Shown: in pieces, positions 12,518 through 41,753 of the stretch
Numbering within the stretch: the first letter of the stretch is position 1
Layout: each line of letters begins with the position of its first letter
DNA from: Selaginella tamariscina
Taxonomy: Eukaryota; Streptophyta; Lycopodiopsida; Selaginellales; Selaginellaceae
Assembly: GCA_003024785.1 (NCBI GenBank)
Contig: PUQB01000527.1
Coordinates: 1-64,000 of the forward strand
DNA: 64,000 nucleotides
Reading direction: 5' to 3'
Translations under genes and position numbers: made by a program
The notes under the pieces: model-generated
Databases searched by the model: none
Seen by the model: only the letters and a program-made list of their open reading frames with translations
What the model was told of the DNA's origin: nothing

Positions 12518-14941
12518 TTACAAGTTTCTGTCCAAGAAGTCACATATGCGCTCCTCCATGTACATCCGCTCCCGCAGGCCCCTGGGCATATGCCGCTCCT
12601 CTGGAAACATGAGGAGTTCATAGTCTTTCCCGGCAGCAATCATAGCATTAATAAGCCTGGCAGTGTGCCTGAAATGAACGTTTTCGTCAATCATGCCATG
12701 CACCAGTAACAGCTTGCCAACAATCCTATGAACGTGATGCATCACCGAACTTGACTCGTAACCTGTTTGGTTCGCTGCTGGCAAGCCCATGAATTTCTCT
12801 GTGTAATATGTGTCGTATCCATCCCATGCTGTCACGGGCGCCCCAGCCACTGCACACTTGAATATCTCCGGGCACCGAGCGAGCGCCATAGCTGCCAAAT
12901 AGCCACCGTAGCTCCACCCATATATCCCTATCTTATCCGGCATGGCAAGCCCTTGCCTGACCAACCACTGCACACCAGCTTCCTGGTCCTCTACGTCTAC
13001 ATGTCCCATATTGTACTTAATAGCTCCTTCAAACTTAAGCCCCCTCCTTGCAGTCCCTCGATTGTCCAGCTGTCAGTAAGCCAGTAAGTATAGGTGTGAT
13101 GCAAAGGCAACACAGAGCATATAACTTACCTTCCACACAAGGATGCCTCTGCTCCGGAGGTATTGAGCCCTCATGTCAACCGTGTTCATCCAAGAGTGAC
13201 AGACGGTCTGAACGTTGGGGCCACCATACACACTGACCACCGTCCTGTAAGGAGGAGGACCATCAGGCTTGTAAAATGCTCCGTACAAGCAGGTGCCGTC
13301 GTTCGCTGTGATTTGCACCATCTCAGGAGAGACTAGTCGCAGCTTTCGAGCTCGAGGGGTGGGTGCTGGCTGCTCGAAAATCGGGACAATGAGCTTGCCA
13401 TCATCAAGAGAGCAGAGAACAACACGGGGTGGCATCTGTAGCGAATCATGGATATCGACAAAGCGCTGCATAGCATGGTCCAACACCACCATGTGCCTGC
13501 CTTGTCCTTGCGTCAGCCTCTTCGGGATGGTGGGATGGAAGAAACTCGTGCTGTACAGGTGCGTCTCAAGGGGACTGTCCAAAGTGGCCGTGAAATAGAC
13601 GAGGCCTCTATCTTCATCCACGCCTGCTACTTGCTCAACTATCCACTGGCCCCGTGTCACTGACCCTAGACAAACACCTGTGTTGTCATATAAGTACAAG
13701 TGCCTGAACCCGTCCTCTCACTCGCCCAGATGAAGCCACCTTTGTGAAGCGGAGTGAAACAGTCGTGTAAATTGATCCAGATCTCACTGCTCTCTTCAAC
13801 AAGAAGAGCTCTGCTGCCCGTCTTAGAATCAAACTTGAGCAGCTTGAGCTTCGTGTGATCCCTGCTCTGGACCTGCACTGCCAGCGAATTGTCAGGCATC
13901 CATGCCACACGTGCCAGGTACTCCTCTTCCTCTGTATCGCCACATTCCAGCTCCATCCACATCACTTCACCACAACCAACAGCCACAACCCCAAGACGCA
14001 CCTTGACATTCGACTGACCTGCAAACGGATATGCATGGTCTTCTTCTGCATCGCCTCCAACACTGGCCTTTCCCTGGTGCATTATCCTGAACCTCGGAAT
14101 AGCTGAGGCATCCACTTGCGTGAACGCAATGTATCTACTGTCTGCAGACCACCAGAACCCAGTTCTTCTTTCCATCTCTTCCTACGGAGAAAGGTGAATT
14201 AAGTGAAAAATATTCCATGTGTAACACTTTACCTGAGCAATGTACTCTGCAAGCCCATGCGTCTGTTTGGGGACAAAAGATAAAGAACGGACCAATATCA
14301 GTACTAAATATCAATAAACAAAGCAAGGAAGTTGCATACCTTCCCACTAGATCGCGCATCAAAAGTAATCTGTCTGGGCTCACCATACATAATGGAGACC
14401 ACATGAATCTCGTCATTCTGAACGTAAGCAATGGAAGTTCCATCAGGGGACAACTGAGGATCGATGATCGAAGAGCACGAGTCACTTGGGATTCTCAGTT
14501 TGAGCTCCGCGCCTAGTCCGGGCTGCACGTAGATCTAAGTGGAGGAGATTAACACGTAGCGAACATTAAAATTTTAAGTATACTACTACTTACCCCTCTT
14601 GGAAGAGGAATCATGAGGTGAGCAGGCTTAGCCCAGTCATAACGAGTCACTCCCAACCCACGCTCCCTCAGCCTCTCCCTCCTGAGCTTCTCAGGCGTGG
14701 ACAAATTACATTCATCTACGCCGCCATTGGGAGGTGACACAAGCAATAACTTCTGCCTGGTATCTGGATTGAAGGCAAAGATCTTCCTGCTCAGTGTGCA
14801 GTCAGGGCTGAAGAGATAAGTGATCAATTTGTCATCTGGACTGAAACTAACAGAACATGGCGCCACGTATCCGGGGAGCGGATTCTGTACTATGTCCTCT
14901 ACAGGAAACAAAGTTGCAGCTAAGTCTTCCGTAACTGGCAT
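12518..14941 (-). CDS. DPP-IV-type prolyl oligopeptidase family serine peptidase (S9, DPP8/9-like)
   Basis: Probably a soluble dipeptidyl peptidase cleaving after proline. Exons are 14941-14594, 14534-14340, 14262-14233 (only 30 bp), 14181-13130 and 13069-12518, for about 725 residues. The N-terminal beta-propeller region contains [17 protein letters not shown] and [19 protein letters not shown], as in plant relatives such as At5g24260. The C-terminal alpha/beta-hydrolase domain carries the nucleophile GWSYGG, the Asp in [10 protein letters not shown] and the His in EERHMPR, a complete catalytic triad. Exon 4 is one base short near 13707, where the frame changes between WASERTG and HLYLYDN; its length is 1,052 and one added base restores a multiple of three. 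No signal peptide or membrane segment was seen. Confidence 0.9.
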
Positions 14942-20696: not shown

Positions 20697-20724
20697 TATG
20701 CACGTTGTAACTAAAGTGGGCATG
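20697..20724 (+). repeat. Candidate left terminal inverted repeat
   Basis: A 28-bp sequence beginning TATGCACG and ending GTGGGCATG. It is the inverted partner of 33930-33957 with two mismatches. Confidence 0.45.
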
Positions 20725-21210
20725 ATACGTGAAAATGGGAATATAAAATAAATTACTAATTAATACTTAAGTTTTAATTATTAATTAATCATTTAATTAA
20801 TATGTAATTAAGCCTTAAATATTAATTAATTAATTAATTAATCCTTCAATAACCTTACTTAGTAAGGAATATTCCTAAAATATCTTAGAATATTCATATT
20901 ATTCTAAAAATAGTTTACAATAATGAAGAAATACTATCAAACATAATTACAAATGAAATCATTTCTTATCAACATGTTAATTTTTTATAAATACTTTCTT
21001 CCTAACCATACAGAGAAATCTCCTCATTTTGTCTAAATCATCACTCTCCGGATTAATCAAATCATTTTGGTCAATATCTTGATGTTGTTGCCACCACTTA
21101 ACACTCTCACGAATGCAATTGGGAGTTGCCATCCTTGTTAATACATAAGATGTAATAAGACCAGGTCTGCATAAAGGCTCATCTAAAAATGACGTTCCTT
21201 AAGAATAATA

Positions 21211-22156
21211 TTATAAAGCCCGGTTGCTATCCTTCATTTTATAAAATTCAAAATCACGAGAAAGAAAAGCTTCAGGAAATGTATGATACGGTGGATACTG
21301 CTCACAAAAATTTTCGAGATTCTTCTTTCTGAGGCACGTATCCAAGTAGTTCACTAGCTCATCCATGATATCGGTATCAGAATATGGATCGAAAGTGATT
21401 GGATGAATACAAGCAATGTTTTGGTTGAGCATAGCCTTCTGAGGAGAGTCGTCTACTAAAGATATGTGCATTCTTCATTATCCTTAAGCGACTGATCTCC
21501 CCATGAGTCCCAATTATTCTTTCATTCTTGAAGAAGTATGGCTTGCTTTCCTTTCTTATATTGTGAAATTCGAGAGGTTTATAACACATTCGCTGGTCAA
21601 AAATCCAATCTTTACGAATCACCTCTTCTGCAACACTACAATGTTTCTTAAGCAAATTCAACAGCGGTGTTAAGTTATGAATCTGCATGCATGACCAAAT
21701 CCCCACAAGCGCACCCATCTCCTTAAGCTTTTGAAAGAGACGATCCAACCCTGGACGAAAAATAATATCATATCGAAATTTACCATGACAAGGAATGAAA
21801 TCTCCTTGTTTGATTTCTTTTTTCCTATCCTCGGGCCTTTGTCGATGAAGCAGAACACCATTGACATCCAACAACACAATATGGCCATGAGTAACATGAG
21901 ATAGCGTTGCCTCTTGAATACTTTGCAAATCACTTGTTTGCTCCCTTTCACATTTATCCGTTGCCACTATCTCGTTGCCTATCCCTTCATCATTTAATTG
22001 TACATCATCCTTACAAGATTCAGATATTGCATGCGCTGAAGAAATTGATTTCGGAACTGAAGCCAATAAAAATGATGATGAAAAAACTGAAGTGGCCCCC
22101 ATGGTAACGATGTTTTGAGCTGCATTATTATCCATTTCCTGCATGAACTCTGTCAT
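21211..22156 (-). CDS. FCP1/NIF-type HAD phosphatase-like protein
   Basis: Resembles the FCP1-homology (NLI-interacting factor) phosphatases, HAD enzymes acting on phosphoserine in proteins such as the RNA polymerase II tail. After ~100 residues of low-similarity leader comes HIVLLDVNGVLLHRQRP. Its first Asp fits the nucleophile, but the usual second Asp of DxDG is Asn (DVNG). Next come RPGLDRLFQKLKEMG and WSCMQIHNL, and in a shifted frame SLVDDSPQKAMLN, the expected acidic motif. The frame changes by one base near 21470, between KNAHI and SLVDDSP. It lies 367 bp past the ParB/methyltransferase-like gene on the same strand. The start ATG at 22156 is the first in frame. Reduced or absent catalysis is possible because of the Asn. 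Confidence 0.65.
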
Positions 22157-22522
22157 TCTGACATGTGGCACAAGAAATTGTCGCCAAACCCCTCTCTTAC
22201 CTCATGCCAATGCTGAAAATCCATGTTCTCAATTGTTTCATTACATCTGCAAAATGATAATTAGCTGACCTTAAAATTATCAAGGTATATTATTTACCTT
22301 GTTAATGTGTGACCCATGTTTGAACTAAAAGCTTCATTAATCCTTGAGAATTTATTTTCTGTACAAATATAAACGAAATATACAAAAAATGCCTTATGTT
22401 ACACTCATTTACAACTATTCGTCACTCTAAGAACTCATTAACAATTCTTCTTCGCTATTACCTTCTGAGTGAGGCGAAGAAGGTCTAAGCCGCTTGTGAG
22501 ATGGTTCAAGATCTTCTATCTT
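22157..22522. other. Spacer between the two minus-strand transposon genes
   Basis: AT-rich 366-bp spacer that would hold the end of one transcript and the start of the next. A possible upstream small exon for the HAD gene (ATG GATTTTCAGCATTGG, minus strand near 22230) does not join in frame, so it was not included. Confidence 0.4.
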
Positions 22523-25500
22523 CTATTGATGTTTCCATGGGTAATGGAGTGTGCAATGTTCTGTACTCCTCGAGATAACTTCCGGTCTAATATCTGATTG
22601 AAGTTCGTCCTCAGACTGACATTGAACCAGATTCGTCTTCAGAGCTATCGCACTTATCGGAGGGAACTTTCTCAAATACTCCTTTATGGATTCGTTGGGG
22701 TAGTCAGTTGAGAACCTATCTATCCACTTGTTCAGGTCCTCAACCATGGTCTTATCCTTTTCAACGGCAAATACACATGTATGCCGAAGGTAACACTCCT
22801 TCAAGACGGACCCCCTAGTGCAGTAGTCAAAAACCCACGCATCACTGTGAGGACCCCTGATCAAGTTGACGATGCTCCGTGCCGCTTGACTTGTGATGTT
22901 TGGATAACGTACATTGCCGAATACGTCACTTCCTATCGGTGTATCGGATGGAGGTTCAGGGCCGTTGGAGTGCAAACAGATGCCTGGCCAGTCATTTGGA
23001 AGTTTGAAACTGTTTGGCGCATTCCTAACAACCAAGTGAACAACCGAATCAATGCACTTCGGATCAGCATCATTCATATAAAATCCTGTCCAACGATGTT
23101 TATTCCTCTTGGCAAAGGAGAAGGCAAAGGTATCGGTGACATGAGCAAGAATCAAGAAATAAATACCTGAAAACGTAGATATCAGTCAAGAGTGCAAGTA
23201 TGAATTCAATAATAAATACCTTCTTTGTACATACTTGCACGCTAAGTTTCTCCACCAAATCCTCTAGTGTCCTGTCTGTCGAAGGATTTTTTGACACCCG
23301 CCGATCCATCACGAACAATTGAAACGGTTTCCTACAAGCAGTGATTAAAGTCTCCGAATCCAACAACAAACATCTGTAGGGCTTGTCGTGATTCGTAGCA
23401 TCCTCCTTTATAAGGTTCAACTCGGTTCTCCGCTGCTGAAGGACTGCCATAAGAGAAGGCGTCATCGCAATGTTCTCCTTTTTGGCGTTGGCGTGCAATA
23501 GATTCTTGCCCAGATCTTCCGATTGATTCACCCATTCGACAAGCATATCATCATTTGTCACATGCAAATATTTGCTGACCTCTTCATATGTTGAAGCCGA
23601 AATCCAACCCAGTTTGTGGCAGTGTATTCCCAACCACTCCTTGAAGTGCCTGACCGTCTTCAACTCCATTGCCTTGAGATGAAAAGGAGAGGTGGGGCTG
23701 CTGTTGTTAATCTGTAATTTGCCATCAATCACCAAATCAGCCAAGACTTCCATCTCCTCCATCGTTGTTCCATTTAAAGGCTTCAACCATGTGAGCTTGA
23801 AATCGTTGTCTACATCCTTTATAGATTGAACAGACTTAGCCTTCGGCGTCTTACTGGGTTTCTTTGCAGACTTCTCTGAGGGCTCCACTTCACTTGTCTG
23901 CTTCTTCTTCAGTGTTCCTTTTGCAAAGGATTCCATAATCCCCAACCATTTCACAAAGATCCTATCCTCGGGACAAGAAATCAACATCATCAAAAGGATG
24001 TTTCCTTCCCGCCCACCTGGGCAAAATCAACTGCTACAATTTCTTCAACTCTCTGAGAAAAAAGACAGATTAATATACCGGCGAGATAAATCCCGCCCAA
24101 ACAATTTGCTTACCCGGTAGTCCGCAGATTGTGTATTCCCTGCGGTAGCTCTTTGTGGTCGCTGAAGAGATTCCCACACGGCTCGCGTGTGTTTGAACTT
24201 CTCCCATATTTTGCTGTTGTAGTGGTTGGTGTCTGCAGCGTCCCATTCCGCCGATAACTTATGGTACTGCTCGATTGTGAGATTCGGCTTCGCTAAAAAC
24301 GCCGATCTTTTCGTCAGCTTCTCACGGGTATGCTCGGAAAGTTTTGTTGCCATCGTTCCTTTGTTGTGTTCGTCGAGAAGTCGTTGGGCTGTTATTGTGT
24401 GCTGGCCACTAATGATGTAGTACTTAACTGATTTTCTATTCTCCGTCTGAACCTTCCTCATTTGTTCCGGTGTTGTGATCCACACTTTGTCAGCGCCTTT
24501 GTTTCTCTCGTAGTATGCGCACAAAACAGCATTATGTGGAACGGTATAAGAATTGTCGTCCTTCATCTTCTCCATGAGCTCAGCTACACGTTCCTGATTG
24601 AGTGGCCTGTAATTGAAGTTTGGGTTGACGCTGCAATACTTAACCCTACACTCGTAAATCCTATCATCCAACATCATTTCCTTGTGGCTTATTGCAGCAT
24701 GGGACGCCACAGGTGCAGCTGACAAAACGACTAATGATTTTCTTCTACGATCCGAATCAACATGTGTGATCCCCGATTGATGCTGTTCTAATGTTCTCGG
24801 CACACTCTTCCAGCTCCCGAAATTTGCTAAGCAAATTGAACGTGATCTGTAAAGAACCTGAGACCAAGCCACCCTCTCAATCTCCTTTATGATGTCGTTC
24901 TTCTTCAATGTGAAGAGGGACGATTGCTCCACTTGGATTTTCTGTATTGTGAAGCAATATCTCCTGAGAATACACCTACTCGATGAGTCTGAAGATCTTC
25001 GAAGTAGACATCCATGGATCCCCTCCATAGATGGGCTTTCGTTGAGTTGAAGAAGAACTCCAGGTCAACATCATTAGTGAACACGTGAACGTCATTATCC
25101 ACAAGTCGACAAAACCACCCGAAATTAATGTTGTAACTGGCGACCTCTGGATCCGAGAACGTGACATTGGATGGAACAAGGCATATGTGTCGAGCATCGT
25201 TCAATCTGGGTTCACAGCATGCTTTCGGATGCTTGACTAGCACACCACTTTCCATTGTTTTGCTTGTCCATGCGATGTGACAGAGGTTAGTTTGACAGCA
25301 ACCATGGTTGTTCCAATGCGCTTCCCGTTTAGTTTGAAATATGGCCAAGTTGATTCCAGAATCCCCCTGCCCATCTCTTCTCCTGCTCTCGTCTTTAATG
25401 TCACCTCAATTCCACATCTGAATACAAAAATGATTAGTTCAAGCACATATCCGAGTATAACAGATTTTATTTTAATTCTTACCCAGAATTTGACGACGAC

Positions 25501-25543
25501 TCCATACTAATGACTCGATCTCCTTGTTTAATTAAATCGTCCT
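22523..25543 (-). CDS. ParB-like domain and DNA methyltransferase-like transposon protein
   Basis: Exons on the minus strand are 25543-25483, 25417-24114, 24052 to about 23240, and 23166-22523, about 940 residues. In order: an N-terminal beta-rich module (GDRVIS, EEMGRGILES, VAVKLTSVTS); a middle region; a ParB/sulfiredoxin-like segment (YRPLNQERVAELMEKMKDD ... KYYIISGQHTITAQRLL); and, after a Lys-rich linker, a C-terminal segment AWVFDYCTRGSVLKECYL ... VFAVEKDK. The last is arranged like the AdoMet-binding motif (D-x-F/Y-C-x-G-S ... E) of amino-methyltransferases. A DPPY-type catalytic motif was not found. Three one-base frame changes sit in A4, A4 and T4 runs (near 25250, 24940, 24030). The intron at 24053-24113 contains one palindrome related to the nearby arrays. 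Function is inferred from motif shape, without any search. Confidence 0.55.
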
Positions 25544-25846
25544 TCTGCAAAATAATACACTATGAATACAAATCATATAAAAACGCACACACACTTGTAT
25601 AAACCCGAATATACAAAAATAATACACAGAGAGAAGTAGACGGAATTAACTGTCCAAAGCTCACCTTTGTGCTAGTGCAAAAGAAAGATAACATTTCGTT
25701 TTAGAACCACCACAAATGTGAGCTCTGGACAGTTTTACATAGTTTCCTAGCTTTTACTCGAAATATTATGATAAGATGATAAAAGTAAATAAAATGAGAT
25801 ATGCAACTTATATATACTAATACACATATATATTCACATGGAAGGT
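25544..25846. promoter_or_regulatory. 5' region of the ParB/methyltransferase-like gene, containing an inverted repeat
   Basis: Upstream of the first coding exon, whose acceptor (TTTTGCAG) lies at 25544-25551 on the minus strand, so at least one untranslated upstream exon is implied. It contains the hairpin at 25648-25734. No promoter element was recognised. Confidence 0.4.
25648..25734. repeat. Inverted repeat, 24-bp arms, 39-bp loop
   Basis: Left arm 25648-25671 and right arm 25711-25734 are complementary at 22 of 24 positions (AACTGTCCAAAGCTCACCTT and its partner). It could be a hairpin RNA precursor, a regulatory cruciform or a MITE remnant. Confidence 0.8.
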
Positions 25847-26545
25847 GCGGCGGGATTAATCTCGCCACCCTTCAATGCCTCCTGAAAGAGTGGGCGGGAT
25901 TAATCTCGCCACCTTTCTGGAGGCCTTGAACGGGAGTGCGGAATTAATCTTGCCACCCTTCTCGGTCTCAGAGAGAACTGGGCAGGATTTATTTGGCACA
26001 CCCCTTCAGTGACTCCAGAAAGGAGGCGGGATTAATCTCGCCCACCATGTAAGGGATGGTTAAATGAATTTCCCCACCCTTCCCAGTTCTCTCCATTGGT
26101 ATGTTGTAAACCTTCTACGTCTCAGACAGAAACGTTTGGGATTGGAGAAAAAAGGAAGGGTGGCGGGATTCATTCCTCCAACAGGCATTGAAGGCTCGGC
26201 GGGATTAATCCCGCGCCCAGGGCCTTCACTCGGTCCCTATGCGGGGATTAATCCCGCCGGACGCCAATTCCTGCTCGAAGCATTAATCCCGCCGCCTAGG
26301 CCCTTAGGCAGGCCTGGCGCGGGATTAATCCCGCCGATTCGCGCGCATCGGCGGGATTAATCCCGCGCCTAGGCCCTTCAGGCAGGCCAATGGCGGCGGG
26401 ATATAATCCCGCCCGATTCCGCGCAGGCATGCGTAGGCGGGATTAATCCTGCCGCCCAGGCCCTTCACTCGGCCTGAAATGGCGGCGATTAATCCGCCGC
26501 TACACACGTCTCACCATATAGCGGCGGGATTAATCCCGCCGCTAC
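25847..26545. repeat. Left palindrome array, about 15 copies of GGCGGGATTAATCCCGCC-type sites
   Basis: The first five copies begin at 25850, 25894, 25938, 25982 and 26026, exactly 44 bp apart. After one decayed unit, further copies occur at about 26163, 26199, 26241, 26277, 26319, 26351, 26396, 26437, 26484 and 26524 with looser 32-47 bp spacing. The palindromic core GCGGGATTAATCCCGC is conserved far better than the spacers, which argues for a binding site rather than simple tandem copying. It lies just upstream of the minus-strand gene. Confidence 0.92.
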
Positions 26546-26748
26546 ACACACACAGATATATGTATATGTGTGTGTAGGAGAGTGCGTGTGTGTGCCAAAG
26601 ATAGTCAAATCAGATAAAATTATACAGATACACACACACACACATATATATGTATATGTATATGTATATACGCGTGTGTGCGAGAGATAGATAAATAAAT
26701 AAAATTATACAGATACTGATACACATAATATGTGTGTGTATACATAGG

Positions 26749-26779
<31 letters not shown>

Positions 26780-27499
26780 ATATATATATCGTGTGTATGT
26801 GTGTGTGAAACAAATAAAATCATACAGATAAACAAACACACACACACACATATATATATACAGGAGTGTGCGTGTGTGTGCGAGAGATACAATTAACAAA
26901 TCAATAAAATTATATAGATACACACACACACATATATATAGATTAATAAATAGAAAATATATATATATATGTGTGTGTGTGGTGTGTGTGTGTGTGTATT
27001 TATTATATATCTGTGTGTGTATATGTATACGAGTGTGCGTGTGTGTGCGAGAGATAGAGATCTAAATTATATTATTAAGATACACACAATATAAATATAT
27101 ATGTGTAAAAATAAATAAATAAATTCAGAAGAGTGTGCGTGTGAGAGAGAGAGAGAGATCTCACCTGTGTGAGAGAGAGAAGGAGATTTCCACGCTGCCG
27201 CCGCCGCCTTACAAACCCTAAAAGGAATAGAATATATATTAACCCTAATCGAATATTCCTTTTAAGAATATACTTAAACCCTAAAAAGAATAAACTATAG
27301 ATTCGCCCTAAATAAATATTCTTTCATTATATGATCAGCGTGTGCGTGTGCGTGGGTGTATCACATACACCCAAGAATAAATATCATGCAAGGGTTTAAC
27401 ACATGTGTGTCCATGAGAGTGTTAAAGTTTCACGTGCAGCGATACATATATACACATAGTATTATACACATAGACATACATACATATTAATACATATTA
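26546..27499. repeat. Microsatellite-rich core (CA/TG and TA runs)
   Basis: Long TG/CA and TA dinucleotide tracts with interspersed GAGAGATA and ACAGATA motifs fill most of 26546-27180. Further AT-rich DNA follows. No coding frame is credible here; open frames consist of repetitive Thr-His/Ile-Tyr codons. Confidence 0.85.
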
Positions 27500-28060
27500 A
27501 TATTAAAGAGACAGAGTACAGGATCATGTATGGTGTGTATGTATGAGAGAAGAGTGACAATACATATTATGGATCATGCATGGTGTGTATGTTTGAGAGA
27601 ATAGAGACAGTACATATTTACATGGATCATGCATGGTGTGTATGTATGAGAAAAAGTGAGAGTGTTAACAAATTAAATTCATACACATTGGATATATTAG
27701 TACACACATATACATACACACGTGTATACACACATACATACATACATTACATGTGTAAATTCAATGTAGGGTTTAGGGTTTAGGGTTAGGATGGATCATG
27801 CATGGTGTTTATGTATGAGAGGAGTGAGTGTTATACACAAATATACATTATACATATTACATAATATTGTAACATCAGTACATATTATGGATCATGCATG
27901 GTGTGTATATATAAGAGAAGAGACAGGCTACATATTATGGATCATGATCATGCATGGTGTGTATGTATGAGAAGGGATTATGTATGAGAGAAGGGATTAT
28001 GTATGGTGACACTGTGTATGTATGAGAGAAGAGATAGAGTGTTAACAATGAAAATCGTAC
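27500..28060. repeat. Imperfect repeats around GGATCATGCATGGTGTGTATG
   Basis: Seven or so copies of GGATCATGCATGGTGTGTAT followed by GTATGAGAGAAGAG occur near 27513, 27571, 27624, 27792, 27888, 27940 and 28000, separated by 45-160 bp. Each contains ATCATGCATG, a palindromic RY-like core. At 27770-27790 there are two to three plant telomere-type TTTAGGG units. Confidence 0.75.
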
Positions 28061-29377
28061 ACATTGCATATATTATATTAGTACACATATATACATACAC
28101 ACGTGTATACACACAGACATACATATATATTACATGTGTAAATTCAATGTGTTACATACACACACACTGAGTACATATAGATCATACATGCGTTGAACAT
28201 GATGTTTTTCAATAAAGAAGCAACATATAATTTCTCAAGTTTGGTTTAGGGCAATGTGCATGTGTGTGCATATGTGTCTCTGTAAGTGCTTCTAATGCGT
28301 GTGCACATGTATATATATTTATGATTGTGTTTATATATAATATGTGCAAAACAAACATCGAATAATTAAGAAAATAATATTAATATACACACTATGAACA
28401 TATTTTAAATTATACATAATAATATATGATTTTATCTAATATATAGCCATATATAGTTTTAATAATATATATTAATTTAATATTGATAATAAGGTTTAAC
28501 TAGAATATTCTTGAAATAATAACAAATTAATTGAGAAAATCCCATTAATATATACAAATGTAGAATAATTACTGAGATAATTAAGAATAAGACTAATTTA
28601 ATTATGATAATCATGTTTAATATTGGAATATTCTTTGAATATTAAGAAAATAACAAAGAATATCCCATTAATAGTAGGAAATGTAAATTAATTACTCGAG
28701 TAATTAAGAAAATAATAATAATAAACAGACTATGAATATATTTTAAATGATACATAATAATATATCAATTTATTTATTGTATTAGTGTATATATATATAT
28801 AATATAAACTTAATAATATATACTTGAATATTAAGAATGTAGAATAATTACAAAAATTTCGTAATATTAAACAGCTTGAAGCACTTGAATGACATTAAAT
28901 GCAATTTTAAAACACTCATTGGAATTGGAGAGTATATATGTCAGACTGTCGGTTATTTGTTTCAACTCATCTTAAATTTTCTTTTTGTTATTTCAAAAAT
29001 TTTAATTTCTGACATAAGTATTATCAGTCTGACATGTAAATTTGAAAATACATTTAATTTCCCACTCAAATTCAGATCTGGTTCTTTCTCCGGCAAGGGT
29101 TTCTTCATTTTCACTCTTCAGATTTTCTTTTTTCTTCTTAGTGATCAGCTCAGGAGCGACATTAAATTGGGTGCGCTATTGTTTATAGGAAAGCACGGCG
29201 CCTTCAGTGCTGTTTACAAGTAAGTATTATAAAAAATTTAGATATATTTATAAAGATTCACTCTCTTACATTCTCTCTTAAATTTTAGAATTTAGGATGC
29301 ATTAGGATTACAATATATTCTGTTAGGGATTTATCCCGTTTAAATATACTTTTAACTTAATATTCTCGGTTAGCCGG
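28061..29377. other. Very AT-rich DNA upstream of the right array, possible 5' exon
   Basis: Mostly AT-rich, with TTGAATATT/GAATATTC-type motifs. An open stretch at about 28876-29219 ends at a good donor (ACAA/GTAAGT) and could be an upstream exon of the plus-strand transposase gene, but it lacks recognisable protein similarity. Listed as possibility only. Confidence 0.3.
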
Positions 29378-30184
29378 GGCGGCGGATTAATCCGGCCATT
29401 TTTTTTCGCCTCTTTGAAGAGGTGGCGGGATTAATCCCGCCACCATCTCTTTCATAGCTATGGCAGAATTAGTTCGGGCAATGCTTCTCCGCCTCTTAAA
29501 AAGAGCGGCGAGATTAATCCCGCCGATAACTCTCTCAACTGATAATGATTTACTTGAATTTATTAGAAAGAGTTGTCGGCGGGATTAATCTCGCCAACCA
29601 TTTTAGGAGGCAGAGAAGGGGTGGCGGGATTAATCTCGCCACTACTTCCCTGTTTTAAATATTTGTGGGCAGAATTCATCCCGAATCTCTTTGAAATCAT
29701 AGTTTCGGAGAGAGTTGTGGGCGGGATTAATCCCGCCGCTTATTCCCCGTCGTCAGAGTTGTGGGCGGGATTAATCCCGCCGCCTATTCTCCGTCGTCAG
29801 TGTTGTGGGCGGGATTAATCCCGCCCCCTCTTCCTCGTCGGAGGAATTTGCGGCGGGATTAATCCCGCCGACTCTCACAGACGAGGAAGATCCGGCGGCG
29901 GGATTAATCCCGCCGGTACTTCCTAGTCGGAGGGAGCCCGCGGCGGGATTAATCCCGCGCTACTTCCTCGTCGGAGGGAGCCCACGGCGGGATTAATCCC
30001 GCCGGTACTTCCTCGTCGGAGGGAGCCGCGGCGGGATTAATCCCGCCGCCTCTCTCCGACGGGGTAGAGTCGGCGGCGGGATTAATCCCGCCGACTCTCT
30101 CCGATGGGGTAGAGTCGGCGGCGGGATTAATCCCGCCGACTCACTCTGAAGGGGTAGAGTCTGCGGCGGGATTAATCCCGCCCA
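29378..30184. repeat. Right palindrome array, about 17 copies with strict 44-45 bp period
   Basis: Eleven consecutive copies of GCGGGATTAATCCCGC begin at 29721, 29765, 29809, 29853, 29898, 29943, 29987, 30031, 30076, 30121 and 30166, a spacing of 44 or 45 bp throughout. About six looser copies precede them from 29378. Spacers of the younger part share a CTTCCTCGTCGGAGGGAGCC-like text and then change to CTCTCCGA/GGGGTAGAGTC, showing stepwise tandem growth. The array ends 130 bp before the first coding exon of the plus-strand gene. Confidence 0.95.
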
Positions 30185-30313
30185 TCAGTTATATTAATAA
30201 AGCATGAGATATTATTTTTATATATAATTATGTATTATTGCACATGCATATTATTAAGCAACTGCAGTTATGATTTCTTACAAATATTGCATAAACAGAT
30301 ATCATAAATAACA

Positions 30314-33300
30314 CAATTATTTATGTGCAGGACAATATGTATAATACTGGAGATAAAGTATGTCTTCTTCGGAACAACGAGATAGTTGGCACTGGAACTG
30401 TGGAAGTTCGAGATGATAATGCATCATGTCACAATATTGCCCAAGGATCTTGTGTGTACGTATGGGTGAACACCATTTTCAAGCATGTTGAGGTTCCTGG
30501 AATGGAATTTGAGGAGGGTTCTCCTGTATTGTGGAATTTGGATGAAGTCAAGGCTGACACAGAATATACAGAGTCACAAACAAACAGTAGCACGAGTTTT
30601 CCAGATGATGGCTTGCCTGCTGTGATGGATGAGGTGATTCTCTTTCTTCATGAGATTGAGGTTGGGAGAGGCATCATCACAGCTATAAATCCAATGGAAG
30701 CAGTGTCAGAAGAGAAACTAGGGTCCGACTTCGTGGGTGTAGTTGTGACAGAGGTTTCACCTAATGGCACTTTGCATCCTGGATCCCTCGTGAGGTGGCG
30801 AACATCTGAATTAAGACGGCAAGATGGTTCAACATATTCTGGGTTGGATTTCAATAATAACAACCCGGAAGAACAACTCATATTTGAAGAGGTTCCTTGC
30901 ATTGGTCCTATTGTAAGAAAAAGGCGATTCATGGGTTGCAGATCTTCCCCTACATGTTTCAGCAAGAGGATGAAGATGGATCCTACATCTTCCGAAAGTG
31001 TTACGAGCATTTCCACGATTGACTGCTGCAAGAAGAAGTGTTGTCAGATGGCAGACCGGAATGAAATTACCCAATGTAGACATGTCTTTCGTACGCTCAC
31101 CCAAAAGCAAAGGCATGAGTTTGTATATGCTGCACTAACTGGGTGTATTGATGGAATGGCTTCGGACACAGGTTATCAGAGTACATCCATGGTATTTAAT
31201 AAGGTGGCCATCTGCTTCAAAGCTTGGTACAGTATATATGGGATCCCAAAGACCACGTTCTACCGTCGGAGGGATGAGTGGTTAGATGGAGCGCGAACCT
31301 CAGTACATGGGAACACTGGCTTGGTCAAAACCCGCTCTCACATTATGGCAGCCATAGAGATACTCAAGGCTTTTGTGGAAGCAAATGCAGACAGGATGCC
31401 TCACAAATGCCGAACCACAAATGCAGGGGTCAGGGAAAATCTCAAGGTTTTGCCTTCGATCTACACTCAATTGAAGCTGTGTGAACATGTGAACAAGTGC
31501 CTCAGCTTGATGGGGCTGCAAGCAATCTGCACTGGTACCTTCAACAACATATGGAATACTCATTTTAAGGATGTGGAGATTGCAAAACACTCTAGCTTTT
31601 CCAAGTGTGACACTTGTACATCATTGAAGGCTGCAGAGGCTTGTGCAAAAACCTTGGTGGAGATCACTGCCATTCAAAAGAAGATGGAGGCCCACATGAT
31701 TGCGCAACAAACTTGCCGGTCTCAGTACTATGCACACCGCATGCTTTCTGTGTCACACCCATCAGAGTACCTGTGCTTGATCCATGACAAGATGGATCAT
31801 TCAAAGACCAGCATTCCAAAGCTCGTTGCAACACCAAAGTGCCTTGGAAATGTCATGAAACTTCCGATTTCATTGACATGTGCTAACACATGGACACGGT
31901 TGTGAATCATATGGACACTTTTCACTTCCACATTGGTCTAGCGACTCCAATTTCACTATTGGGTCGTTGGCCATGTGTTTCAGAAACCTTGAAGCCCACT
32001 CACAGACAAGTCCTATCGGTGATCTCAAAGTGAAGAAAAACACCTTCAACCTTTACATAATGCTCTCATGAACACGTCTGCACTTGAGGCTACTTGGGAA
32101 TATGAGAGGCATTGTCAGCAACCTGCACAAAAAACAGATGGCCCTGTTGAGAGTTCAGGTTCAGTGGAGGGATCTAGCTCAAATAGTGTACATGTGTCCT
32201 CAACATCAAATAAGCTTCCTCGTCATTTGCTTTTACAGATGGATAATTGTGCAGGCGAGAACAAAAATAGGTAAATCATTTTACTTAAGGGTTTCTCAAG
32301 CTCATACTTACTTTTATTTTCTAGATATGTGCTAGCATACTTGTCAATGCTTGTTGCCAAAGGTGTGTTTGAAACAATCACGCTCAGTTTTCTTATGGTT
32401 GGTCACACTCATGAAGATATTGATGCGTTCTTCAGCAAGGTCTCCAACTCTACAAAAAGGACAAGTGCACTTACCTTACCGCATATGATGAATCTTTTTG
32501 AAAATTGCATCTCCAAAAAAAGTTGTGCTTTGCTTGTGACTGAGGTGCCAGACTTCAAAAAATTTCTCAAGGAGTATATAAAAGAGGGGAGTGATTCTTT
32601 AGTTGGTCACCTTGTGCCGCTACAATTCTTTTTCTCCATACGAGATGGTATACCTATTATGCAGTACAAGTTACGGCCATCAGAGCAGGAGTGGTTACCG
32701 AAAGAGGGGTTAATGCTCTTCAAAAGTGGAGAGAATGGAAAGCCACTTCTCCCAGAAGGACAACCAGACCCTATTCCATTGAGTGCCCAGCTCAAGGAAC
32801 AAGAGGTTATTATTGATGGCATCAAAAATATGTGGCATGGGTTCAAAAATCGATGCCAAAGAATTCTGATAAGGCAACTGGTTACTCAGAACTATATAAG
32901 CATGTGGTTGACTATTGGGAGACTGTTGTTCGAGAGTTGGAAGGGCCTACTGTCACAAGTACAGAATTGCAACACCCTTTTTGGCCTAAAACAAGGTGGC
33001 GAGAGGAGATTGAAATGACATCACTGAGCACAGACGACATAGAAGCCAGTAGTGATGTGGAAGTGCAAACCCCACACTTTGTTGGACAAAGGAACCAAAA
33101 ACCTAAAGCATACTTTGATTGCTGCCAGGATCTTCAAAAACTAATGATGGTTCTCATTACTCCAGATGCGTCATATAATCAGCCTATTTGGATGGGTCAA
33201 ATTATCGACACACCTGAAGTAATCACAAAAAATAGTATTGTTAAGGTTGCATGGTTCAAACCACAAAAAAGGCGACACGAGAAGGAGAGCGAAAGATATA

Positions 33301-33452
33301 ATGGATGCCTAGAGAAAACATGGTCTCCCAATCAAAAAGACCCAGCATGTTTTATAAATGTTAAATCCATTCGATATGGGTGGATGTCAAGAAGCGTTGA
33401 TAAAGTCACGATTAACAAAACTGCAAGGGAATGTATGTTTTCTGAAGCTTAA
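30314..33452 (+). CDS. DUF7869-like DDE transposase candidate
   Basis: Exons lie about 30331-32270 and 32325-33452, with a 54-bp intron inside the conserved core; a further untranslated exon is implied by the acceptor TTATGTGCAG. The N-terminus has two copies of a beta-rich module (NTGDKVCLLRNNEIVGTG and MDEVILFLHEIEVGRG) like that of the minus-strand gene. Next are a Cys cluster (CCKKKCCQ), an HTH-like stretch with GIPKTTFYRRRDEWL and HGNTG, and the RNase-H-like core: Asp in HDKMDHSKT, Asp in LLQMDNCAGENKNR, and MVGHTHEDIDAFF, which together suggest a DDE/D triad. Frame changes near 31879 and in an A5 run near 32846 interrupt the reading frame. Family assignment is from memory of motif style and is not search-confirmed. 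Confidence 0.65.
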
Positions 33453-33929
33453 AGCAATTACAAAATTATAAAATATCATATATTTAATATTCATAATTAT
33501 TATAAACTCTTTAATAATAGTACCAAATTGTTTACTTAACTATATAAATTTAAAAAATGATATGGAAGATTGACTATATTATTATAGGATTTTATATATA
33601 TATATTATACTACAAATTTTTAATTAATAATGTTATATTTAAATATTAATATTTTAATAACAACATCAATATTTATATAATGTACCTCTTATGCTCTTCC
33701 TTAATTGTTATATTAGGCAATATATTATATAATTTAATACCTTCTACTTTTATAATGTTATTAATTTTTGTTCAATGAATGCTTAATTTATTAAAGGGTA
33801 GAATACAAAATAGAATATTCTAAAGAATATTCTATTTTCAAACATATATTCTAAAGAATATTCCTTTAATATTAGAAAATGCTAATTAAATAGCTAAAAT
33901 TGCTAATTATTAGGAAATGGGACTATAGC
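33453..33929. other. AT-rich 3' flank inside candidate transposon
   Basis: No gene. It contains TAGAATATTCTAAAGAATATTC-type palindromic repeats near 33810-33865 that mirror motifs close to the left end (20876-20915). Confidence 0.5.
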
Positions 33930-33957
33930 CATGCCCATTTTAGTTACAACTTGCATA
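33930..33957 (-). repeat. Candidate right terminal inverted repeat
   Basis: Inverted partner of 20697-20724; 26 of 28 positions agree. Confidence 0.45.
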
Positions 33958-34282: not shown

Positions 34283-34961
34283 TGGTTGATGGTGGCCCAT
34301 CATCATGGCCAGTTGGTGGGACGCCCACCGGCGCGGACGAGCGATTGGACGAAGCACCGGATAAGGAAGGTACTTCGGGTAGGGATTGATGGCGACCGGT
34401 GTTAGGCGGCGATGTAACTGAGCAAAGATCCGATCGTCCAAACCAACTACCCAGGGTACGAAGGACAACATGCGTGGGGAGGCACATAAATGTGACAGGC
34501 AGGACTCTGACACCAGGCGGCAGACCAATGGGAGAGCGCCACCTGTAGCTAGGATCTAGTGGTAGATACCCACTATATAAGCCGGAAGGTAGGTAGTGGG
34601 TAGGGGTTTTTTTGGAGTCAAGTCTGCCTTATATCTTGCTCCACTGTCGGAGATAGTTTGTACTCAGACATGCAATATATATCCATTTTCCTTCTATTCA
34701 CCCACAAGCAGGCATTCCCCGCTTGCCCGACTCCTGGGCCCCGCAACACTCCCTGCCCAGTCATCTAAGTAGAACTCCCCTTACCTGTACATGGACCCTC
34801 GCGGCGTCCGGGTAGAGGCCATCCAATACCTTCCATTACTCCTAAGGTAAGGCTCGGCTTGTCGGCCGAACCCTGGGGTTGGACGCCCTCAATAGCGTCC
34901 TGGCGACCACTGCAGCTTCCTGAGAAGCACCACATCTGGCATGCGGAATCCTCGATGACCA
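34283..34961 (+). repeat. LTR-B, 5' LTR
   Basis: 679 bp, TGGTTGAT...GATGACCA. A TATATAAG-like box (CACTATATAAGCC near 34570) and the downstream TTGGAGTCAAGTCTG stretch are conserved in all copies and probably mark the promoter and transcript start. Confidence 0.92.
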
Positions 34962-34997
34962 TTTGTGGCGACCACAGAGGGATAGAAGTACACACAG

Positions 34998-35264
34998 ATG
35001 GAGTTCATTGTAGCAAGTAGAGTGGCAGCCCAACGAAGAGCCGAGATTAACTCATTCGAGCAAATAAAGATTGACGAGCAACAGCTGACCAGGAGAATGC
35101 GGCGGGCCGGCCAAGGGAGATTGATGGACGGTGGCGAGGCACCTCGGTTGCCGCAATCAGCCTCTGCCTCACCTACTAGAGGGAATGACGGTAACGGCAT
35201 AGCCGAATCTCCGAGCAGCGGTAAACTCGATATACCAGCGGTAGAGGCAGTCGCACGCCGCTGA
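34998..35264 (+). pseudogene. LTR-B N-terminal gag-like open frame
   Basis: An 88-residue open frame starting 36 bp past the 5' LTR and rich in Arg, Gln and Glu (RRMRRAGQG). Its position fits the start of a gag polyprotein, but no conserved motif is present. It is cut short by a stop codon. Confidence 0.4.
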
Positions 35265-35723
35265 CGACGAAGAAGGATATGAAGGAACCACAGCACGTTC
35301 GGACGACAATCCAGGCACGGCAGCATGCGGATATGAACAGCACCCGAATGGGCGACTTGCCCAACAGTAACCTACGACGTAGAGTGGGACGGATGGCAAG
35401 ATGACGAAAGCCCTTCGCCTCTCGACGTAGGTGAAAGTGACGGCCACGAAGAGCCCCCATACCAACAAGCAGAACCAGTCTTTGACGAGTACCCCGAAGG
35501 AGGAAACCTCACCCAAGACAACCCAGGAGAGGGCAGGCTTGCGACGGAGGCAAGAATCTCGAGGGGCGAAAGCAACACGAATAGCGACGGAGGACGTGAG
35601 CCAGAACCCACCGTGACCAACACCACAATGGAGGTAAGATAGGAAACCCAGGGCCATCGTCACCCATCAGGGTGAAGCGGGGGGCCTGTGTTTTGCCCAG
35701 AAAGAGGGGAGGAAGAGCCTCAT

Positions 35724-36402
35724 TGGTTGACGTGGCCCGTCATCATGGCCAGCTGGCGGGACACCCACTGGTGAGAACGAGCGACTGGACAAAGCGTCGG
35801 ATAAGGAAGGTACTTCGGGTACGGACTGATGACAACTGGTGTCAGGCGGCGGCTAACCGGGCGAAGATCCGATCGTCCGGACCAACTACCCAAGGTACGA
35901 AGGACAGCACACGTGGGGAGGCGCATAAATGTGACAGGCAGGACTCTGACACCAGGTGGCAGGCCAATGGGAGAGCGCCACCTGTAGCTAGGATCTAGCG
36001 GTAGATACCCACTATATAAGCCGAAAGGCAGGTAGTGGGTAGGGGTCTTTTTTGGAGTCAAGTCTGCTTATATCTTGCTCCACTGTTGGAGATAGTTTGT
36101 ACTCAGATAGGGCAATATATATCCATTTTCCTTCTCTTCACCCCACAAGCGGGCATTCCCCGCTTGCCCGACTCTTGGGCCCCGCAACACTACCTACCCC
36201 AGCCATCTCAGTAGAACTCCCCCTTACCTATACATGGAACCCTCGCGGCGTCCAGGTAGAGGCCATCCAATACCTTCCATTACTTTGAGGTAAGGCCTGG
36301 CTTGCCGGTCGAACCCCCGGGTTGGACGCCCTCAACAGCGTCCTGGCGACCACTGCAGCTTCTAAGAACACCACATCTGGCCTGCGGAGTCCCCGACGAC
36401 CA
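35724..36402 (+). mobile_element. Nested solo LTR-B with target duplication CTCAT
   Basis: Identical in layout to the other LTR-B copies. CTCAT flanks it at 35719-35723 and 36403-36407, showing an independent insertion into the interior of the 34283-42435 element followed by loss of its own interior. Confidence 0.92.
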
Positions 36403-36407
36403 CTCAT

Positions 36408-38660
36408 CCGGGAAACCCCCATAGGGAGGGCATCGATTGCCAACAAGGCAACCTTTGCACTAGGAGTTCAGTCGATCGGAGATGCAGCAGGTCAGGGTGG
36501 TTACCAGGATGAGAACCCAGGCTTCGGAAAGCCGGGGTACACATGGACGACCGCCTACGCGGAGGCGATTGGACGTCGACGAGCTGACAGACTAGGAGGA
36601 GGCACAGAAAGAGGGGCTGCATAGTGGCTACCTTGGAGAAGGGACGAGAGGAATTCGTCCAGGTAGGACAGATTCGCCCGAGTGACTAGTATCGCACCGG
36701 CCCCGCGAGGGAAATCCGCCTGGGCACATCGCAGAGCCGCAACCATCACCAGACGGGGGATACCATCTTGGGGCGAGGAGGAATCGCCCCATCAATCACG
36801 GCCGTCTAGACGTCGTGGGGGGATTCCGTGCACGGTCATACAAAGCTACTCGCTGGAGGAGGGAAAACCGTCCAGCCAAGGTAAGCCGCACCACCACCAG
36901 GTTGGTCCCGCGGTGGGGCCCCCGAGGGACAGCCTGGAGGAGCCCGTCCTCGTCACCCACCCTCAACGGGAGGGCAGGGCCGTGAGGAAGGAGAAAGGTG
37001 CCCACAGATTACCGGACGTGTACTACACCATGTCCAAAGCGGAGGGTCCGGATCAGAACAACTCTCAAGCACAACGAGATGCCATGGGAACCGACCCGGT
37101 CACCTTATTAGCTGAGTGCTCAATCGGATGCAGGAGAGCACCGTAACGGTGCGCCCTTACCCGTGTTCCGTGGAGCGAAGGGGGAAGACGCAGACCAACA
37201 CGTACACAAGTTGAACAGGTGTGCGAACTTCGGTGTGTGAGTGACAACCACAAGAAGTTGAGTGCCTTTCCATGCACTCTGGACAAGAAGGCACACACCT
37301 GGTGGATGCGATTCCACGAGGCGAACGAAGGACCCCGTTGGGAAACCGCACGAAGGGTGTTTTGAATACCTTCCAGGAGGAAAAGAGTGAAGAGGAGGTG
37401 ATCTACAAGCTAACGAGCTTGAAACAGAAAGCAGGAGAGTCGGTGACAAATACACTGTCGCATGGTAGGGTATATCGCTCGGCCAAGAGACGCCCCAGTT
37501 GACCTGATCAAGAAAATGTGGTACCGAAAGGGACTGCGGCTGGAGATCCGTAAGTGGATTGGCTTGGATGACGACTGAACGTTCGACAAGTTACTCCGGT
37601 ATGCCAAGAAGGCCGAAAAGCGGAAAGCTGAAAGACGCCAAGAAAGGAAGGCACATGACAAATCGGACGCAGATGAGGCGAACGATACCGCATCGAATGA
37701 GGAAAACTCTTGAATGCTGAAAAGGCCGACCAAAAAGGAGAAACAGTCGGGTACCAAGGGACACATGCAGCTGCAGCGGGCAAACCCTACGGGGGGCCAC
37801 GCAAAAGGAAGACTTATCCACGACACTGGCTCAAATGGGATACACTGCACGGGGGGATAAGTACTGTCGGGTGTGTAACATCGCGGATTTCACAACATGG
37901 ACAATTGCTACCGACTAGCCGAACTCCTGAGCAAAAGGCTACCACATGCAGCCACACTGACGGTAAAACAAGGAACTGAAGAGGGGGCATATGGCCAAAG
38001 AAGTTACGACCGCAGAATGGAGGGAGACAACCAACCTCGTAGGAGGTCTCGTTCAGGGGACTGAAATCGTAGGTCCCATTCCCGAGAACAGCCACCGTAT
38101 CGACCCAGGTATGGCGACAGAGAGAGACGACCAAAACGCAAAGAGGTGTTGTGTGCACTGTGCGGAGACCCACACCCACTCTACCGATGTTCATGGGTAT
38201 CATTGATCAAACCAATGCTAGAAGCGCAAGCAACCGGCGTCGCCAGGACGAGCAACGGGCAAATTCCCCAAACCCAATTCCAAACTCCACACCGCAAGTA
38301 AACCAAGTAACGGTGGTACTACCAGAACAGGACGTTGAGACAAACATAGTACCACAAGCCCCTTAGCGGACGAAACAAGGGAAACACAAAGGCGGAGAAC
38401 CAGGGGAGCGCAAAGGCTCGAAAAGAGAAGACATGCAACAAAACCCCAGTTTTAAAGCAGTGGGAAGGAAGCAAATGCAAGAACTGACAGTCTCGGAGCC
38501 TGTGGATCGCCCAGCGAGGCCAAGAATCCCTAAGAAAAGTAAGGAGAAGGCGAAACCATGCATTCGTAAGGGGAGAGGCCCAGATCATAACAGGAAACGC
38601 CGCTGGTTCCCACCGCACGATGGGAGAATTAGGTATGACCAGCAGCAAGACCCCCACCAA
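36408..38660 (+). pseudogene. Decayed gag region of LTR-B element
   Basis: Pieces in different frames read like a retrotransposon gag. At 37200-37450: FPCTLDKKAHTWWMRFHEAN, then RRVFNTFQEEKSEEEV and YKLTSLKQKAGESVT, which follow the usual W..F...F...L..L.Q..GES order of the gag core. Near 37850 the frame YCRVCNIADF suggests a damaged Cys-rich motif. Several stops and frame changes separate them. Confidence 0.6.
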
Positions 38661-38677
38661 GAGGCACTGCAACCATA

Positions 38678-38968
38678 GTGGACTACGTGAACGACGTACC
38701 AACTATCCCGGTTCACATGGCGGGTCACACAATCAGCGAAGTGATTATAGATGGGGGTCAACAGTCAATGTCATGTCAGTGTCATAGAGAAATTGCGTAT
38801 GCCAACTCCGGAGCCCACTCCATTTTAGGTACGGATCAACGTTGTGGTCCTGGATATGCACGCCAGGGGGGATTCGACCTACTCCTTGATCGACCCTGCT
38901 CAAGGGTGCAAAGGTACAGCACAATTGGGAACACCAACAGATACGGTTCCGCACCAAACGAGCAATAA
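38678..38968 (+). pseudogene. Decayed aspartic-protease-like region of LTR-B element
   Basis: VPTIPVHMAGHTISEVIIDGG followed in the next frame by a VNVMS-like sequence matches the beginning of retropepsins in which IDGGS precedes VNVM. The usual DSG/DTG active site is replaced by DGG, as in some plant Ty3-type elements. A frame change occurs just after DGG. Confidence 0.5.
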
Positions 38969-40850
38969 GGTCCATACCCACAAGCAAACCCTAGGCCCCC
39001 GCACGGAGATTCGGGGCGTTGGAGCATCAGGAGCCCGGCAGGCGCGGGGGATGGAGCGAGGGTGAACAGCGACCTTCGCAGGCCGACTTCCGGGATTGGG
39101 TTGCGCCAAACAGGAGGCCTCGCATCAGAGGTAGGCCAACGTGAACAAACTAAAGATCGCAGGAGACAGATCGAAGCTCGAAACTATCCGGCACCGGAAC
39201 TTTGGTTCACCAACCATTGGGACAGGTCCAGAGGGCTTATGTGGACATACCCAAGTCAAACGGCTGCCCCAATCAAGTGGAGCCACCCCAGAGCTGATAT
39301 TGATAGGGATTGGCAGCCCTTTTCCAGTCCTGGTCCCAAGAAGAAATACCCACTACCTGGGCCAATCGAGATCATCCCGAGAAGTGGGGAGGGAGAAGCT
39401 CCGATGGAAGTAGGACACGAAAATCTAGATAGGGACATACAGACCAGTGTGGGGAAGAAGCGGCAGGAAGGGATCAACAGGTAAGACTGTGCAGTTAGAG
39501 CCAGGATGGGCCTCACCAGGCGGCAGCAAAACCACCACAGTCTACGATAACGGACAAGTACCATGACAGACGGCCAATAGTAGCCGTGCTAGTCACACAG
39601 ATGGAGCACAGATTGAGGAATCCCGGGGCAGAACCAGCGAACCATGGGGCGAAGAGATAGGGAAGACGGAGGAGTCGGAAGTAGGATCTCCAAACGCACG
39701 TGTGGCCAGCTCACAGGATCACATGGTCCACGAGGTTGGACCACAGGCGTGAGGCACGCACTACGAAGGCAATGATGGTCGGGCGGCCATCATTGCGTAT
39801 CCAGGCGCAGGGATAGACACGCCAGTCACCTCGGAGGATGCCACAAGGATTGCCACAGCACCTACACTTAGAAAGGAGGTGCACAATGCCACACCCCCAT
39901 TACCATGACCATGGGGTGGACAGAGAGAAATCGGCCAGTGGTGATCAAAGAAATTCGCATGTTCATCAAGGGCCAAGAACGAGCAGCGGAGCTAGTATCG
40001 CCCAGGTACTCCAAGTTCAAGGAATTAATCGGGCAACCCGATGTCCGGCGAGTCAGGAAGCAATTGCGATTGGATGAATTCTTCGACCTTCTGTGGGGAG
40101 AAGTGGAGGACTCAGGATTTGATGAGAAGGCCAGACAATTCCTCTAGTTAGTGGAATTAGTGGCTAGTCAAACCGGGCATAGGGGGATACAATTCTGCAC
40201 AGATGGGAGTGCCGTCTTCTGCATTATTTCGATGAAGTAGCAATAGTCTTCCGGCTACCAGGGGATGGCCTAGCCCTAGGGGAATGCTCGGACGCGGAGG
40301 TTCAACAGCTCGGCACCACAGGAACTCATGGACTACGAGACATACAAGCAAGGAGGAAGCAGTCGAGTTCGTAACACTAGTGGCCTTCATGCTCACAAGA
40401 AGAACAGGGAGTCGAATCACCAGGCGATTGGCGAATGGTCTTTGCAGGGTGTGGGAAGGAGTCGCGATAAATTGGGTTGACTGCCTTAAGTAGTACCTGA
40501 TTTCGGCTCTAACTAGTGGGATTCACGGAGTGCGGGCCGGCACTGAGCAAAGGCTACCCACGGCTGGTCACATTGCTATTATGACCACGGGCTCGTTCGG
40601 CCGAACGGTAGTAAGAGCACCACCACCACTCCAAATGGGGGAACAGCCAGAACCCCCGGAGTCAACAGAAAAGGATTCAACGAAGGGACCGACGTCTACA
40701 GAAGAACAGGCGTCAACAAAGGAGCAGGCGAAGGGTAGCCTCCTTCTGGACTAGGAATCACCAGGGTATGTAACGCAAGAACCCATACACGCAATTCCCC
40801 TGGCTATAGGATCCCCACTACCAGAATCCTCGTCAGACGCAATCGAGCAA
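38969..40850 (+). pseudogene. Uninterpretable decayed interior of LTR-B element
   Basis: Short open pieces in all three plus frames, none with recognisable reverse transcriptase (no YxDD) or integrase (no HHCC or DDE) motifs. Codon content stays Arg/Gly/Glu-rich like the surrounding coding remnants. Confidence 0.4.
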
Positions 40851-41710: not shown

Positions 41711-41753
41711 GGCACATGGCTCGAGGACGTACCAACGAATAAGTCTAGGCATC

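Follow-up and report, generated by a model that had tools for sequence, protein, structure and literature searches.

The window analysed here, a stretch of 64,000 nucleotides from the plant Selaginella tamariscina, raises the question whether a eukaryotic DNA transposon can carry, in addition to a transposase, a second long gene whose product acts on the DNA of the element itself. A sequence-only reading of the window had described a large transposon with divergent gene sets, one of them encoding a ParB/methyltransferase-like protein, and arrays of CpG-rich palindromes that the element might use to mark, count or partition its own DNA. Does this element exist as a unit, what does the second gene encode and what are the arrays for?

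The element extends from 20697 to 33957. It is bounded by terminal inverted repeats (TIRs) of 28 bp that are identical in 26 of 28 positions, compared with 22 of 28 in the best of 40 Markov shuffles. In the window copy the two gene sets indeed diverge from one central region, as had been read from the letters. The probable start codons of the second gene (minus strand) and of the transposase gene (plus strand) are separated by 4.8 kb, and the second protein is encoded by several exons on the minus strand between 22523 and 25505. The features, in order along the window, are:

20697..20724, plus strand: left TIR, at the second-gene end, 26/28 identical to the right end
21211..22201, minus strand: FCP1/NIF-like phosphatase (Pfam NIF), in two overlapping frames in the window copy
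22523..23166, minus strand: last exon of the second protein, with the stretch VFDYCTRGS, which resembles motif I of methyltransferases
23167..23234, minus strand: probable intron, read as GT...AG; the flanking frames do not join in the window copy
23235..24052, minus strand: middle part of the second protein; its frame is broken in the window copy
24053..24113, minus strand: probable intron with a single palindrome variant
24114..24677, minus strand: ParB/sulfiredoxin-like segment (by motif only), with the GQHT box
24978..25505, minus strand: probable start codon, first intron and an N-terminal domain that resembles a stretch of the transposase
25849..26540, no strand: palindrome array 1, upstream of the second gene
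26541..29379, no strand: low-complexity, AT/GT-rich middle between the arrays
29380..30182, no strand: palindrome array 2, upstream of the transposase gene
30337..33452, plus strand: DUF7869 transposase candidate (PF25273), with a probable intron at 32271-32324 and frame breaks in this copy
33930..33957, minus strand: right TIR, at the transposase end, 26/28 identical to the left end

The window copy is broken. Both long genes contain frame breaks, and a 4-bp target-site duplication was not found at its ends. Elsewhere in the window, an ORF of 750 amino acids (8030-10282, minus strand) has a partial Nramp domain (E 1.1e-25) and resembles plant EIN2, two ORFs at 12518-13717 (minus strand) make up a prolyl oligopeptidase/DPP IV-like gene, and an ORF at 56759-57463 (plus strand) has a CW-type zinc finger (E 2.3e-10). 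The region 34300-42000 is GC-rich with a strong AT skew (up to 0.34) and is probably another mobile element. A long PPR-repeat protein (50293-52468, plus strand) lies in two overlapping frames and is either a pseudogene or split by an assembly indel; an indel of this kind may also be relevant to the broken frames within the element.

The assembly searched for relatives comprises 300.7 Mb in 1,391 contigs. A TIR pattern of 27 bases with two positions left free had 2,642 matches genome-wide (1,350 + 1,292), and the reversed pattern, which served as control, had none. The exact 18-bp palindrome of both arrays, GGCGGGATTAATCCCGCC, occurs 27,128 times, compared with zero for the same letters read backwards and not complemented. 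A search with one exon of the second protein gave 6,084 candidates, and all of the 150 that were scored were at least 85% identical; the last exon reads without internal stop in 142 of 150 scored genome matches, the window's own included. DUF7869 had 300 matches in the assembly, and the 150 listed all exceed the cut-off. Taken together, these totals imply a family of probably well over a thousand copies. Among 100 listed places, 28 adjacent TIR pairs face each other at distances of 6.7-304 kb, and 13 of them are spaced 13.8-15.4 kb. The TIR list of the genome also holds other types, e.g. ATGCATGTTG...AAAATGGG, perhaps from a second family or an older subfamily.

The family makes 4-bp target-site duplications. 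Identical 4-bp flanks are present at four of ten TIR pairs (TAGA, CTAT, TGGT, CGTT), with a chance expectation of 1/256 per pair; the remaining six pairs are without identical flanks, and some of these may join ends of different copies. Read by eye, identical flanks are also present in copies C36 (GATA), C335 (ATGT) and, if the nearer of two left ends is taken, C501 (CAAT). Duplications of 4 bp are typical of Sola transposons.

Whether the parts travel together was followed in 13 further copies, which were drawn from the listed matches to an exon of the second gene and picked before their neighbours were known. Twelve of the 13 hold the N part of the transposase and the arrays next to the second gene. 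This bears out the proposal of one large eukaryotic DNA transposon with both gene sets, copies of which combine both genes and the palindrome. The phosphatase gene was found in 12 of the 13 (C529 has 2,617 masked bases) and the C part of the transposase in nine; C529 and C47 are truncated by the limits of the stretch retrieved, C14 is without about 0.9 kb there and C661 is without this part. With up to 8 mismatches allowed, the left TIR is present in nine and the right TIR in five of the 13. In C661 (249701-269700) the left TIR, the phosphatase and the C-terminal part of the second gene were found, and the ParB-like part, the arrays and the transposase were not; it is probably an internal deletion derivative.

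Among the 150 matches listed for each query, 19 second-gene places share a contig with a DUF7869 place; the distance is at most 20 kb in at least 10 of these, and the divergent layout within 20 kb is seen in at least 7 of the 19. Among the first 100 listed palindromes, which all lie on contig C1, there are six pairs of clusters that are 3-4 kb apart, the others being unpaired, and for five of the six pairs a listed DUF7869 place lies 2-2.5 kb off. Copies C501 and C1059 had looked like divergent modules by their low tblastn identities. This was rejected, since frame breaks explain the low values and the DNA of the transposase pieces is 96-98% identical; the verdict on C1059 draws on a reading of its frames, and DNA identities were obtained for both copies.

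The transposase candidate is defined by a known domain. The signatures DNCAGENKN and HTHEDID, which had been singled out as hints of a DDE-type transposase, both lie within Pfam DUF7869 (E 1.9e-6 and 3.7e-27), and PF25273 scores 95.6 and 28.1 bits against a curated cut-off of 26. The protein search gave only two relatives, the ENA proteins P0001 (33% identical, aligned over 86% of the transposase) and P0002 (29% identical, over 78%). The candidate acidic residues are the same in all three sequences. We infer that the DUF7869 protein is the transposase of the element. A search of IMG/VR with the transposase alignment gave no relatives, and PF26133, an accession listed for P0001, was not seen in that protein by hmmscan.

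How the genes have been kept can be seen from dN/dS. For the second gene, compared with a second subfamily (six copies), the ratio is 0.14 in the middle part, 0.20 in the ParB-like part and 0.19 in the first 143 codons of the last exon. The whole last exon gives 0.48-0.57 in this comparison; in its tail each copy shows about 10 nonsynonymous changes and not one synonymous change, and the raised value is most likely due to a frame break in the tail of the window copy. Within the window's own subfamily the last exon gives 0.55 on 0.1 synonymous changes per copy, too few to judge. The N part of the transposase has ratios of 0.15-0.40 in 10 of 12 copies, the outliers being a short partial copy (0.58) and the badly frame-broken C1059 (1.12). 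Its C part has 0-0.13 in seven of nine copies, and the other two are without synonymous change. The phosphatase gives 0.13 and 0.38 on few changes. By these ratios both long genes are under purifying selection; they have thus been maintained as proteins during the spread of the family.

What the second protein is, is less clear than that it has been kept. The FCP1-like phosphatase named as its neighbour is confirmed (Pfam NIF, E 7.5e-9, 35.9 bits against a cut-off of 21.8), with DVNGV in HIVLLDVNGVLL at the place of the DxDxT/V motif of NIF/FCP1-like phosphatases. For the second protein itself, the ParB/sulfiredoxin segment had been proposed from the string KYYIISGQHTITAQRLL; the string is present, and support from a family profile was not obtained. 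The assignment of an AdoMet-methyltransferase is likewise a motif-level lead, with neither a profile match nor a DPPY/W motif. Pfam, PHROGs and NCBIfam gave weak matches of the second protein to unrelated families (best E 0.002, below the cut-off). DUF6551 touches the GQHT stretch of the window at E 0.059 and is not listed for another copy. No match was obtained with PDB sequences at E 10, with the protein database at E 0.01 or at E 5, or, for the ParB-like segment, with phages at E 1; two pieces of the protein searched against IMG/VR gave none that was confirmed, and PF02195 (ParB) had no match across the whole assembly at E 0.001.

Profiles built for the purpose gave the same result. One ParB profile reached 13.8 bits with none of 1,000 shuffles as good; its consensus held the window's own words (PNFNYRPL) and it was discarded. 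A ParB profile from PDB sequences alone scored -0.4, and 244 of 1,000 shuffles were as good. A methyltransferase profile that included a hand-typed consensus was equalled by 98 of 200 shuffles, and one from PDB sequences only gave no alignment. The profile of six phage ParB-methylase fusions gave nothing significant (hhalign probability 0.1%); in its best local alignment, at this same probability, the ParB box of a phage ParB-methylase is paired with the GQHT stretch. AlphaFold models from single sequences reached a pLDDT of 45 for the ParB-like part and of 32, too poor to use. In the former, we read with low confidence the order of strands and helices expected of a ParB/sulfiredoxin domain; such folds are absent among the best 50 rows of each structure list, which at a pLDDT of 45 is meaningless.

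Could the second protein nevertheless be a true ParB fused to a beta-class DNA methyltransferase, one that would attach to the arrays and methylate the element that encodes it (4mC or 6mA), in line with the proposal made for transposons of algae? The GQHT box, its position in the best hhalign stretch and the purifying selection all speak for this, as does VFDYCTRGS...AVEKD, which in a by-eye comparison occupies the place of motifs X-I in beta-class enzymes; the layout is also like that of Sola1-1_Ec32 from Ectocarpus (PMC12477816). Against it stand the missing matches to such families in Pfam, PHROGs and NCBIfam, profiles that do no better than shuffles and structure models of poor quality. 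In addition, the likely place of (D/N/S)PP(Y/W/F) reads LLLDSETLWG in copies C14, C47, C335 and C336. As a ParB-METHYLTRANSFERASE the second protein is a motif-level lead, possible but unproven, and we regard methylation of the element by it as doubtful.

A firmer lead comes from the N-terminus of the second protein. About 40-50 residues resemble a stretch in the N-terminal region of the transposase (score 60, none of 1,000 shuffles as good), and the same residues match P0002 (score 65, none of 1,000); the match to P0001 is weak (9 of 1,000 shuffles as good), and no match was obtained with the first N-terminal stretch of the transposase (148 of 1,000). Ten pairs were compared in all.

The palindrome arrays announced by the sequence-only reading are real and confined to the element: 12 exact palindromes and 29 with at most four mismatches occur in the 64 kb, all of them within 24080-30182. 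Each array stops 150-350 bp short of a start codon. The single variant at 24080-24097 lies within the probable intron 24053..24113, and in 11 of the 12 array-bearing copies, C445 being the exception, a palindrome stands equally far from the ParB-like exon. The palindrome is conserved and the spacers are nearly random. At 387 array sites from 13 array-bearing sequences, the window included, anchored by the central ATTAAT alone, the six flanking positions on each side carry 1.2-1.9 bits, whereas spacer positions carry 0.01-0.49. The spacing between palindromes peaks at 43-46 bp. A single palindrome was also seen in the viral contig L001.

This bears on the explanation that the arrays are functionless tandem-repeat expansions of the palindrome. 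Tandem repeats do expand by themselves, and array length differs among the copies. Nevertheless, a palindrome that is kept among near-random spacers, at both promoters and in 12 of 13 copies, makes this highly improbable. A second explanation would look to the host: the palindromes could be sites of a host transcription factor, e.g. two inverted E2F-like half-sites that would tie expression of both genes to S phase. The E2F core motif is GGCGGGA/TCCCGCC, with WTTSSCSS as the plant consensus, and transposons are known to amplify binding sites of host factors. The half-sites of the palindrome resemble this core and the arrays stand in both promoters, but WTTSSCSS has one mismatch in each half-site and only five full matches in the element, and the conservation of all 18 bp together with the 43-46 bp spacing suits a dedicated ligand better. 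We therefore consider a host factor of this kind unlikely.

The substitutions within the palindrome were counted in 465 sites from the 13 sequences, a set chosen by similarity, so that conservation in it is inflated. Among single changes, C to T at position 14 is the most frequent, with 61 of 465. T to A at position 9 comes next (39), and then G to A (37) at position 5, which is the mirror of position 14 (CCG context). The same kind of transition is rarer at the four CpG positions (11-16 of 465 each), where G/C exchanges amount to 20-27 of 465 each; the change at position 14 and its mirror at 5 is thus several times commoner than the like transitions at CpG. In the genic parts CpG transitions are not clearly raised (1.2% and 2.1% versus 1.3% and 1.5%), and therefore nothing is concluded about 5mC.

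The N-terminal stretch common to both proteins also allows the view that the transposase alone binds the arrays, which would serve it as an internal enhancer or for synapsis, and that the second protein has an unrelated role. Repeats bound by the transposase occur in other transposon families. Here, however, the arrays stand at promoters well inside the element, with 5.1 and 3.8 kb between them and the nearer end, and the TIRs do not contain the palindrome, which makes this view improbable as well.

The reading that we prefer, and consider probable if only just, is that of an autonomous family of cut-and-paste transposons of about 13-15 kb in which the palindromes form operator arrays for an element-encoded protein. 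It builds on what was observed of the ends (27-28 bp TIRs), the copies, the duplications, the gene order, the arrays, the selection and the shared stretch. The DUF7869 protein would cut and paste the element. The second protein, or else the transposase with which it shares the N-terminal stretch, would bind the arrays cooperatively and thereby hold both promoters in a given transcriptional or chromatin state. This state might be a methyl mark, anti-silencing or simple autoregulation; ParB-like DNA binding combined with methylation by the second protein is one possible, unproven form. Some points argue against this reading: C661 has the C-terminal part of the second gene without arrays and transposase, the window copy is broken and without duplication, six of the ten TIR pairs have flanks that differ, among the 150 matches listed for each query the divergent layout within 20 kb is seen at only 7 of 19 second-gene places, and a host factor could bind the arrays as well.

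It is tempting to go one step further and to think of parS-like self-recognition, in which an element protein that shares a domain with the transposase would bind dozens of palindromes at both promoters and chemically mark or shield the element, which would have aided its spread through a plant genome to more than a thousand copies and 27,000 sites. This is speculative and rather unlikely. Of the roles suggested by the sequence-only reading, marking has a published counterpart as a hypothesis for similar transposons of algae (PMC12477816); none of the present observations speaks for counting or partition. If the arrays were self-recognition sites, however, the genome would offer about 27,000 identical natural sites in probably over a thousand copies, a testbed for the control or marking of transposon DNA by the transposon itself in a plant. 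The case would also link the ParB-methyltransferase transposons of algae to plants and supply the DNA target that has been missing. Promoter arrays of one palindrome that are family-wide and mostly spaced 43-46 bp call for a specific ligand even if methylation plays no part.

Proteins of an element that act on its own clustered short motifs are familiar from the anti-silencing VANDAL transposons with VANC and from the TnpA repeats of En/Spm, from which the Selaginella element differs in the motif and its position. P0001 and P0002 have the same Pfam domain as the transposase; their longest contigs, of 4.4 and 5.3 kb, give no context. Phage fusions of a ParB-like protein and a DNA methylase (L002-L007) have the same proposed order of domains, without a significant profile match. 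A further likeness is found in algae. For algal transposons with ParB and methyltransferase accessory genes, a self-marking hypothesis has already been published (PMC12477816). Sola1-1_Ec32 of Ectocarpus is described there as having a gene for a ParB-like and N4C/N6A methyltransferase protein on the strand opposite the transposase, and similar genes are mentioned for transposons of green and red algae (PMC12477816, its refs 50, 51). With Sola1-1_Ec32 the Selaginella element shares the nature of a giant DNA transposon with an accessory gene opposite the transposase. It differs in its plant host and in its DUF7869 transposase, which may or may not be related to that of Sola1, and the ParB and methyltransferase domains reported for Sola1-1_Ec32 are not demonstrable in the second protein from Selaginella. 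The promoter palindrome arrays are a feature of the Selaginella element that goes unmentioned for Sola1-1_Ec32 in the passages of PMC12477816 on these genes. Measured against those passages, what the present case adds is the palindrome arrays, the N-terminal stretch shared by both proteins and the plant host.
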